From Spirochaetaceae bacterium (GTDB lineage Bacteria > Spirochaetota > Spirochaetia > Treponematales > Breznakiellaceae), in the NCBI GenBank assembly GCA_031282145.1, contig JAITEG010000091.1, forward strand, positions 1 through 42,335: a DNA stretch of 42,335 nt, read 5' to 3'. Position numbers and translations under genes: made by a program. Shown piece after piece: positions 37,477-40,358 of the stretch (its first letter is position 1; each line of letters starts with the position of its first letter). The notes under the pieces are model-generated. The model was not told the DNA's origin, made no database searches, and saw only the letters and a list, made by a program, of their open reading frames with translations.

Positions 37477-37507
37477 TTTTGGATAGGATATGTCGAGGAG
37501 GTTTATT

Positions 37508-38146
37508 ATGAGTCACGGATATTTCGTGATGGAGGCCAGGCTGCCCCCTGATCCCAAGCCGGACGTCCATCTTTTCATCGTTTTCGATAACAACGTAAGC
37601 ACCATCAGGTTTGAAGAGGAAGACCCGGATGTCTATTTTCTTGAGGACGAGCGTCTGGAAGACCAGGAACGCTGGACCGACAGCGATTATTACGAGTGGT
37701 TTCTGGAAGACATCAGCGAGGCGGGCAAACAGGGCAAGCGTATCATCTTCCTCCGCTACAACCCCATGGTCGCCCAGTGCGTGCCCCTCTTCTTCAAATA
37801 CTTCGAAAAGGAACAGCGCATCCGGTGGCACGCCCTCTCCTTCTTCCACAGCGACGAGGATACCGAATACGCGGATTTTAATTGGACCGATTCGATCCTG
37901 GCGAAGTTCTACGATATCGACAGCATGAACCAATTCCCCTGGATCCGAAAAATCGAAGTCCCCCTGGACGAAACCTATTATCACCGGGACCTCCTGCGGT
38001 TTGTCCTCAGCGAGGAAGACTTCAAGGAACTCGACAACGAGAACGAAGAGCCCTTCGCGCGGGCGGACCCAAAGGACATCCGGAAGATTATCAAAGCACC
38101 CCTGCTTACCTGGACGGTAACCAACCTGCGGACAGAGGGCAAGTAG
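37508..38146 (+). CDS. acidic hypothetical protein
   Basis: 212 residues from the ATG at 37508, chosen because GAGGAGG (37495-37501) lies in front of it. The protein is very acidic and aromatic (EDPDVYFLEDERLEDQERW, DSDYYEWFLEDI) with no signal peptide or membrane segment, so it is cytoplasmic. No domain is recognised. A terminator-like hairpin follows at 38229-38255. Confidence 0.75.
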   Translation: MSHGYFVMEARLPPDPKPDVHLFIVFDNNVSTIRFEEEDPDVYFLEDERLEDQERWTDSDYYEWFLEDISEAGKQGKRIIFLRYNPMVAQCVPLFFKYFEKEQRIRWHALSFFHSDEDTEYADFNWTDSILAKFYDIDSMNQFPWIRKIEVPLDETYYHRDLLRFVLSEEDFKELDNENEEPFARADPKDIRKIIKAPLLTWTVTNLRTEGK

Positions 38147-38220
38147 CACCGGTATAGCCAGGCGGTTAGGAATGAACCGTATAAAGACGCCCGTCTCACT
38201 TTTAGCCCGCGGTGACCGAC

Positions 38221-38249
38221 TTGATCTAAGCCCCCGGAGGGGCTAAACT
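38221..38249 (+). promoter_or_regulatory. candidate sigma-70 promoter of the envelope operon
   Basis: TTGATC (38221-38226), a 17-bp spacer, then TAAACT (38244-38249), each with four of six consensus matches. The spacer coincides with the terminator hairpin, so read-through and initiation may interfere. Initiation would fall about 38256, almost on the ATG at 38258. Confidence 0.35.
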
Positions 38250-38255
38250 ATTTTT
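38229..38255 (+). terminator. Rho-independent terminator after the acidic gene
   Basis: AGCCCC (38229-38234) and GGGGCT (38239-38244) form a perfect stem with loop CGGA, followed by AAACTATTTTT. It lies 83 bp after the stop of the gene at 37508. Confidence 0.6.
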
Positions 38256-38257
38256 CT

Positions 38258-39423
38258 ATGGAAAAAATCGCGGTGATTTTTTCCCCCCCCCCCCCCCCCC
38301 CCAGCAAGTAGCCGTTAATACCCTTACCCAAACCAGACCGAGCGTTTCTCCCCGGACATTCACGATACGGTCCTTATGCGCCCTGGGGGCACTGCTGGTT
38401 TCCTGCGCGGGAACGCCGCGGGCCGGCGCGCCCCCGGCCGTTGCTGCGGGAACGTCCGAGAGCGCCGCGCCTCCGGCCTGGGCGGGGCAGACGGAAGCGG
38501 TCTATCCCCGCTCCGCTTATATCGCCCAGCGGGGGGAGGGCGCCACCCGGCAGGCGGCGGAACTGGCCGCGCTGAACGGAATTTCCTTTTATTTTGAAAG
38601 CGAGATCAACGCCGAAGAATCCCTGCGCCGATCCTGGACGGAACAGGACGGCATTACCGCCGCCGAAGCGCGGACCGAGACCAACACCCTGGTACGGTCC
38701 CAGACCCGCCTTGTCGCGGTACGGTACGCCGAGGATCCCTGGTTCAACCCGGGCATCCGCGCCTGGGAGACCGTGGCCTACATCGACCGGGAAGAAGCCT
38801 GGACCCTCTACGAACCGGAAGCGGCAAAGGTCCGGGACACCCTCCTCGCCCTGGCAGCCTCGGCGGAGGCGGAGGACGAAGCCTTTACCCGGGCCCTCCG
38901 CTACGGCGCGGCAACGAACTACGGGGAGAGCGGGGACTTCACCGGAGTCCGCACCTTCGCCCAGGTACTGTATCCCGCCAAAGCCCGCGCCCTGTTCCGC
39001 GAAGCCGACGCCCTCCGCTCCGCCCTGCCGGAACGGGTGTACAGCGCCCGGCAAAGAGCGGCGGTCTTTATCGACTGCCCGGAGGACCTGGACGGCATGG
39101 TCGCGGCGGCCACCGCGGCCGCCCTGACCGCCGCGGGCTTCCCCGTGGAAGGGGACCGGCAGCGGACCGCCCGGGCGTGCCGTATCCGGGTAGACCTGGG
39201 GACCCAAGCCGTGGCAGGCGGCGCGTTTTATGATCCCTCCCTTACCGGGACCGTGAGCGGGAACGGGAGGGCGGTGTTCTCCTTTACCGCGAAGGCCCCC
39301 CGGCAGAGCGCGGTAAGTCCCGAGGTGGGGCGCCGCCGGGCCTATACCGCCCTGGCCGCGGTCCTGGGGGAAACCTTCGCCAAGGAATTAAACCAAAAAC
39401 AGGCGTCCTACCGGAAGCCCTAA
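38258..39423 (+). CDS. LPP20-like lipoprotein, OFF phase in this sequence
   Basis: The reading frame ending at 39423 encodes a lipobox (CALGALLVSC, Cys at 38404-38406) and an LPP20-like domain (YIAQRGEGATRQAAELAALN), about 340 residues after the Cys. No in-frame ATG, GTG or TTG exists before 38773. The nearest start, ATG at 38258 (MEKIAVIFS), runs into a 20-C tract and stops at TAG 38309. One extra C (21) would fuse it to the lipoprotein frame, putting the Cys at residue 50, and 18 C would also work. Both other frames stop within about 15 nt after the tract. The product would be an envelope lipoprotein. Confidence 0.7.
38283..38302 (+). repeat. poly-C tract, 20 bases
   Basis: An uninterrupted run of 20 C follows six T, within the first codons of the lipoprotein gene. 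Such long G/C homopolymers in treponemes change length by slipped-strand mispairing. Here length decides whether ATG 38258 reads into the lipoprotein. The exact count may also be affected by sequencing error. Confidence 0.9.
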
Positions 39424-39446: not shown

Positions 39447-40358
39447 ATGAAAAAGACGATCCCTTTGATTGCCGTCCTGGGAACGGCGGCATTGATTATG
39501 GCGGGCTGCGCATCAAAGCCCAAGGCGGAAGAAACCCCCACACCGGCGGAGATCCGCCGGGAACAGGCCGGGGCCGAGGTGGAGACCCAGCCCCGGCCTT
39601 CCACGGTCCTGGACTGGGCGGACCGGAACCTGGGGGAAGGGCCGGTGCCCCTATGGCTGAAACCCCTGATCAAGGGGAACGCGGAGCCGGTCAAAACGGC
39701 CTTCGGCGTCAGCGCCGACGCCCGGGTCAAGTACAGCGTCGGCCGGCGGGTCAACCGGGAGGAGGCCCGGGTGCAGGCGGGGCTCCTCTTCGCCGCCCAG
39801 TTGGCCAACGAACTCAAGACCTACGTGATGACCGCCGCGGCCCAGACCCTGGACGAGGGCCGGATAGACCTCATCGAAGAGATCACCGCCGCGGCCAAGG
39901 TGAACGTTACCGGCGCGGAGCGGGTGGCGGATTTCTGGCAGCTCGTTGAAACCGAAGACCCCCGATCCCGGGGGGTTAAAAGTCCGGAGTACGTTTATTA
40001 CGTGGTGTGGGCCATGTCCCGGGAGTCCTGGACCGCCCTGACCCGGAAGTACGTCAACGACGTGATAGGCAGGCTCCCGGACCGGGCGGTCCAGACCAAC
40101 GTGGCCCGGGCCTACGAGGACATCCAGGCCGCGGCGGACCGGGAAATAGAGATGAGCGACGCCGAATTCCTGCAGCGGCTGCACCTGCAGGAACAGGCCG
40201 CCGAGGCCGCCCGGGACCGGGCAAGGACAAACCAGGGGGCCGGGAACCGGTACACCGCCTACAAGGCCGGCGGCAACGACGCCGCCGCGGCGGCCGCCAC
40301 CGAAGCGGACTACGACTGGATCTCCGCGCTGAGCGCCGCCTCGGAGGCGGTGTTCTAA
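39447..40358 (+). CDS. lipoprotein of the LPP20/CsgG-type operon
   Basis: 303 residues with a classical lipoprotein signal (MKKTIPLIAVLGTAALIMAGC, acylated Cys21). A Pro/Glu-rich linker leads to an LPP20-like domain (EGPVPLWLKPLIKG, REEARVQAGLLFAAQLANEL). The C-terminal 70 residues are Ala/Arg/Gln-rich and helical. It lies 23 bp after the phase-variable lipoprotein gene, with AAGGAG as ribosome site, and 30 bp before the CsgG-like gene, so the three form one operon. No enzyme motif is seen; an envelope structural or assembly role is inferred. Confidence 0.8.
   Translation: MKKTIPLIAVLGTAALIMAGCASKPKAEETPTPAEIRREQAGAEVETQPRPSTVLDWADRNLGEGPVPLWLKPLIKGNAEPVKTAFGVSADARVKYSVGRRVNREEARVQAGLLFAAQLANELKTYVMTAAAQTLDEGRIDLIEEITAAAKVNVTGAERVADFWQLVETEDPRSRGVKSPEYVYYVVWAMSRESWTALTRKYVNDVIGRLPDRAVQTNVARAYEDIQAAADREIEMSDAEFLQRLHLQEQAAEAARDRARTNQGAGNRYTAYKAGGNDAAAAAATEADYDWISALSAASEAVF

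Follow-up and report, generated by a model that had tools for sequence, protein, structure and literature searches.

A poly-C tract as a probable translational ON/OFF switch of an LPP20-like lipoprotein in a Spirochaetaceae bacterium

Introduction

Several surface proteins of Neisseria meningitidis are controlled by repeats that lie within the gene. The nalP and ausI genes carry poly-C in the coding region, while autA and autB carry AAGC repeats immediately downstream of the start codon, in DNA that encodes the signal sequence (PMC5472700, PMC5118866). In these systems slipped-strand changes in repeat number move the reading frame, so that one ON and two OFF states result (PMC5472700, PMC5118866). 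The locus described here likewise has its repeat towards the 5′ end of the coding region of a surface-protein gene, and would follow the same frame logic. It differs in belonging to another phylum and other proteins, and in that its tract precedes the whole signal peptide of a lipoprotein that lacks a start codon of its own. The arrangement also recurs at many loci of the bacterial family, in part with a shared gate motif.

In spirochetes, poly-G tracts of Treponema pallidum have been linked to surface-protein genes (tprE/G/J, tprL, tp0126 and others), and 76% of 17 further tested tracts vary in length (PMC7864442). An initial annotation of the present DNA remarked that long homopolymer tracts are known to serve as phase-variation switches in treponemes. 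The characterised T. pallidum tracts are ~7-11 nt long with G on the coding strand, and they work mainly within promoters (PMC7864442). Both cases involve homopolymeric G/C tracts at surface-protein genes of a spirochete, whereas the tract described here is 20 C long and lies between a candidate start codon and a signal peptide.

The protein behind the tract resembles the LPP20 family (PF02169; structure 4kzs). To our knowledge, no LPP20 gene has been reported to be controlled by a poly-C switch. Phase variation in this family is not mentioned in the papers examined on the family and on spirochete evolution, and literature on termite treponemes together with phase variation or homopolymers yielded nothing relevant. 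As a single gene, the locus would be a further case of frame-based phase variation as already known; the novelty appears to lie in the placing of a tract before a lipoprotein with no start of its own, in the dispersed gate and in how many tracts there are.

Results

Anatomy of the tract

The window, which is the whole stretch of 42,335 nucleotides analysed, is the entire contig C57 of draft genome G000 (3.04 Mb, 268 contigs, 91% complete, 5.7% contamination). A run of 20 C occupies positions 38283..38302 of the plus strand, ~4 kb inside the contig end rather than at its edge. It is the sole C run longer than 8 in the 42 kb, the next longest being 8, and the window's composition predicts ~5e-7 runs of at least 20 C.

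A proposed start, ATG 38258, and its leader (38258..38311, plus strand) read MEKIAVIFSPPPPPPSK at 20 C and end at TAG 38309-38311, so that the assembled length corresponds to an OFF state. Translation at 17 to 23 C showed that 18 or 21 C lead from ATG 38258 into the lipoprotein frame, giving 387 or 388 aa with the frame ending at 39423, while 19 or 22 C give ...ASSR and a stop at TAA 38316. Lengths of 17, 19, 20, 22 and 23 C thus all stop within ~20 codons, and 18 and 21 C stay open. A change of one C converts an early stop into the open frame, as expected of translational phase variation, and the long homopolymer lies between ATG 38258 and a startless lipoprotein ORF. The initial annotation had described ATG 38258 as out of frame at 20 C with a stop at 38309, one added C as restoring the lipoprotein frame, and the third frame as stopping at 38316; these statements hold to the base, and its frame logic of one ON and two OFF states is correct.

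The lipoprotein behind the tract

The lipoprotein frame has no stop between 38230 and 39420, and the part of it that ATG 38258 enters at 18 or 21 C counts 373 codons. Behind the tract, at 38302..38403 on the plus strand, it encodes a startless leader and lipoprotein signal sequence, QQVAVNTLTQTRPSVSPRTFTIRSLCALGALLVS, entered in the ON frame at 18 or 21 C. A frame scan agreed with the earlier claim that no in-frame ATG, GTG or TTG precedes 38773, a GTG that is the first of this frame and lies deep inside the mature protein. The signal, RTFTIRSLCALGALLVSC-AG, is a standard lipoprotein signal with a charged n-region, a hydrophobic stretch and the lipobox LVSC, whose Cys (codon 38404-38406) is conserved in most orthologs; the lipobox noted earlier is a good one. 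The mature protein, lipidated at that Cys, would extend over 38404..39423 on the plus strand, with its stop at TAA 39421-39423.

An LPP20-like domain had also been proposed. Neither Pfam nor NCBIfam gave a match to the window protein, which falls below the PF02169 threshold, so that this part of the assignment rests on relatives: among 20 aligned homologs, 9 have a PF02169 match, and a profile built from all 20 gives a weak hit (E 0.008) to 4kzs, a structure of the LPP20 family. A structure predicted from three sequences was too poor to use (mean pLDDT 49.6).

Comparison of the window protein with its orthologs at loci L100 and L101 gave dN of ~0.2 and dS of 0.7-1.1 over the mature protein (dN/dS ~0.2-0.3), by which measure the mature lipoprotein is under purifying selection. 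This indicates that the lipoprotein is translated and useful at some time despite the OFF state of the assembly, and it rules out a pseudogene.

Start and expression signals before the tract

The sole Shine-Dalgarno (SD)-like sequence before ATG 38258 is a GGAGG 17 nt upstream, and no SD lies at normal distance. The GGAGG falls inside a terminator-like hairpin, AGCCCC-CGGA-GGGGCT (38229..38244, plus strand, from a pattern scan and fold), which is followed by AAACTATTTTT; the scan found 2 such patterns in the region versus 0.6 by chance, which makes it weak evidence for a terminator. An inverted repeat, GGAAAAAATC-GCGGT-GATTTTTTCC (38260..38284, plus strand; RNA fold -10.3 kcal/mol, z -2.2), stands directly against the tract.

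Neither a consensus promoter within 38100-38420 nor a TATAAT-like box adjoining the tract was found, and the tract neither separates a -35 from a -10 box nor abuts a -10 box, in contrast to promoter-type poly-G phase variation (T. pallidum tp0126, Neisseria porA). A candidate leader promoter, TTGATC-17-TAAACT (38221-38249), was rejected, since by manual count only 8 of 12 consensus positions match. Its TAAACT, a weaker -10, ends 8 nt before ATG 38258, and at L100 a TATAAT that looks like a strong -10 ends 6 nt before its ATG. Nearly leaderless translation might be possible. A good SD-ATG precedes the tract at L238 and at many other loci of the family. The use of ATG 38258 as a start in the window genome is the weakest step of the model.

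Three orthologs carry tracts of different length

Three orthologs from other genera have poly-C directly before the lipoprotein frame: L100 (C14), L101 (C19) and L238 (C14). L100 and L101 come from the Spirochaetaceae bacterium MAGs Gx481_bin89 and Im510_bin12 and are 67% and 64% identical to the window protein. In both, the tract is on the coding strand; at L100 the upstream DNA is unrelated, and the L101 contig begins 73 nt before its tract. At L238 (41% identity) the order is AAGGAG-ATG-59 nt-C14, continued by AIGLSRYKRFFSFTTLFFAFVLAGVFAAC; no further start codon lies behind the tract, and 13 or 16 C would bring the ATG into frame.

Two findings had been named in advance as able to overturn the switch. 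Invariance of the tract was not seen, the window gene and the three orthologs having 20, 14, 19 and 14 C. A conserved start downstream of the tract is absent from L101 and L238, in which no start codon lies between tract and lipobox, and present in L100, where ATG 5010 follows the tract as a possible start. At another locus, L239, a C22 lies further upstream, within the 5′ leader, and the gene there has an SD-TTG of its own. The 70% identical ortholog L228 (genome G111) has no tract, nor do ~25 more distant orthologs, most of which have an ordinary start ~20 codons before the lipobox. The tract therefore accompanies the gene in some lineages, varies in length, and in three of the four tract-bearing copies (window, L101 and L238, but not L100) takes the place of the normal start.

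Tracts and startless reading frames across the family

We counted stretches of 13 or more consecutive C or G in 150 genomes of the same family. Such runs occur in 134 of the 150, with a maximum of 250 in one 2.5 Mb genome, whereas G045, a genome of T. pallidum size, has one. In an order-level sample the family median was 13 per genome, against a median of 0 and a mean of 0.9 for the other four families. One-contig genomes carry tracts as well (13 in G066, 6 in G033), which argues that short-read artefacts do not account for all tracts. In these one-contig genomes some runs are very long: C61, C45 and C40 (L257, L258, L266). Loss of mismatch repair as the cause of the family's tracts was rejected, because G000 has a full-length mutS1 and 128 of the 150 family genomes have one over the cut-off.

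The surroundings of the tracts were scored in a context-blind sample of nearly 100 tracts from the census-listed genomes, 65 of which lie far enough from contig ends. The arrangement was defined as an SD and ATG within 72 nt before a C tract and, behind the tract, an ORF of 120 codons or more that lacks an early start. It was present at 14 of 65 tracts versus 35 of 1236 random positions (~8-fold, p 3e-8), and at 0 of 65 on the G strand. A lipobox followed the tract in 10 of 65 cases versus 18 of 1950 random positions (~17-fold, p 5e-9). Across the 150 genomes the SD-ATG-tract pattern was found 70 times and its reversal 22 times. At 27 such loci the ATG was in frame (ON) in 9 and out of frame (OFF) in 18, a ratio that is expected for random length and fits an unrelated ATG and ORF equally well, so that it does not discriminate.

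Repeat length also differs between relatives within the family. One genome holds near-identical paralogs with C13, C14 and C16, and two orthologs from a single genus carry C19 and C14. The genus of the window genome itself contributes L334 (genome G004), which reads AAGGAG-ATG..C24..TGFGNLRLVPLVLIVCALGIAAC, with a startless lipobox behind the tract. Products encoded behind the tracts are largely surface proteins and include BspA-type LRR, LpoB/TolB-type, FN3/Big_2, FGE-sulfatase and CotH proteins, besides a glycosyltransferase.

A dispersed frame-gate motif

The motif GATAGGTTTACTAGGATATAA follows 11 of 160 tracts within 6 mismatches, versus 0.3 for shuffled motifs. A search for the motif alone gave 40 occurrences among the matches listed, spread over 19 of the 150 genomes and over 14 genera, and the reversed motif had no match among the same genomes. 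Of 30 fetched loci, 25 have six or more consecutive C in the 40 nt upstream of the motif, usually adjacent to it. Two frames are closed by the motif, one immediately by TAG and the other by TAA after six codons; the third reads IGLLGY and is the longest frame in 27 of the 30 loci. Several loci run on into lipoprotein or secretion signals (L282, L289, L302, L293), and directly after poly-C the motif precedes unrelated genes at L265, L271, L287, L289, L293, L302 and others.

The window-gene orthologs L101 and L238 carry the motif or a close variant. It is not present after the window tract, where TAG 38309 and TAA 38316 do the same job. We tentatively suggest, as a possibility somewhat less probable than its negation, a reusable phase-variation leader across the family, made up of a start, a short leader, poly-C and this gate or an equivalent, before many unrelated surface-protein genes. 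If so, gut symbionts would run stochastic surface switching genome-wide, on a scale well above that of T. pallidum.

Neighbouring genes

Upstream, an open frame of 218 aa (37490..38146, plus strand) without a Pfam or NCBIfam match lies outside the switch; it and a close ortholog of the lipoprotein are absent from the four other genomes of the genus. Downstream are a second lipoprotein (MKKTIPLIAVLGTAALIMAGC; 39447..40358, plus strand) and a secreted protein that runs off the contig end (40389..42335, plus strand), each with its own SD and ATG. The latter has a C-terminal BspA-type LRR region (PF13306 LRR_5, E 5e-28), which confirms the LRR gene that had been placed in the lipoprotein's operon. 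The order lipoprotein, second lipoprotein, LRR protein is the same in L100 and L101. The switch might also affect this downstream LRR operon.

Discussion

We conclude that the tract is probably a translational ON/OFF switch of an LPP20-like surface lipoprotein, working by slipped-strand frame change. Translation would begin before the tract, most likely at ATG 38258, and the ribosome would read poly-C as poly-proline. Only the right remainder modulo 3 (18, 21, 24... C) would lead into the startless lipoprotein frame, and any other count would bring translation to a stop within ~20 codons. Each event of slipped-strand mispairing in the tract would add or remove one or two C, and a population would hold both ON and OFF cells. 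The phase-variable reading proposed by the initial annotation gains from the comparison, in which tracts recur at orthologs and above chance in the family. Support comes from the anatomy of the locus, from ortholog tracts of differing length, from purifying selection and from the recurrence of SD-ATG-poly-C-startless lipoprotein across the family. The points against the switch are that ATG 38258 has neither a well-placed SD nor a consensus promoter, that L100 has an ATG after its tract, and that the L239 tract lies in a leader.

The poorly placed SD and the L100 and L239 loci favor an untranslated 5′ leader, in which the lipoprotein would start at a codon other than AUG, such as ATA 38365, or at a weak internal start, and the length of the tract would tune transcription, mRNA structure or translation while leaving the frame as it is. 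In L100 and L239 a start does follow the tract, T. pallidum tracts act mainly in promoters (PMC7864442), and the family has a promoter class of its own, G(n)TATAAT, with 16 matches in 14 of 150 genomes versus 2 for the reversal. We nevertheless regard this explanation as unlikely. In the window, L101 and L238 alike, the stretch from tract to lipobox contains no ATG, GTG or TTG; no SD precedes 38365, and the unselected sample has the SD-ATG before the tract, the startless ORF after it and the C strand as the only strand.

Slippage of RNA polymerase or of the ribosome at the tract would let every cell make a fixed in-frame fraction, with no heritable switching. Long homopolymers can promote transcript slippage, and such a process would account for a lipoprotein that is conserved though the assembled frame is OFF. 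We consider it quite improbable, because tract lengths of orthologs and of near-identical paralogs differ by non-multiples of three, which demonstrates length change at the DNA level over evolutionary time. An assembly artefact or false join of two unrelated sequences, which the fragmented draft with its contamination, the many family tracts within 200 bp of contig ends and the join-like L038 tract of the same genome might suggest, has hardly any likelihood and is dismissed as the main explanation, given three orthologs with a tract at the same place and different upstream flanks, tracts inside one-contig genomes, and codon usage to the right of the tract that fits the left as well as the best left-side genes do (0.26-0.28, two lipoproteins).

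Homopolymer-based phase variation has mostly been studied in pathogens that evade immunity, and here it would be widespread in spirochetes that seem to be mostly uncultured inhabitants of the termite gut (probably Breznakiellaceae). This raises the question whether phage, host surfaces or flagellate surfaces are the selecting force in an insect gut. Since start codons are separated from their genes by tracts, lipoproteins and outer-membrane proteins in these genomes would be mis-annotated or called pseudogenes. Existing metagenome reads for the genomes concerned are suited to a direct test of the switch.

Other tracts were noted in passing. L033 (G000:C32), L034 (G000:C103) and L308 (G004) have similar SD-ATG leaders (MTHT.../MIHT...) that end in poly-C; no long ORF follows the tract in L033 or L034, and the L034 contig ends 204 nt later. 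At L038 (G000:C221:1742-1762) a C21 cuts a LysE-like gene and adjoins a GC-rich low-complexity stretch and a transposase-like gene, possibly as a false join or an insertion site. Promoter-type tracts occur in two genera (L079, L080 and L210-L212 in G032 and G019), with TTGACA or a variant, 7 nt, G13, and TATAAT or a variant. Finally, a G19 in G000 (L035, G000:C127:6498-6516, reverse strand) ends ~6 nt before the GTG of another lipoprotein (VKKIIMVLAALVFMSC).
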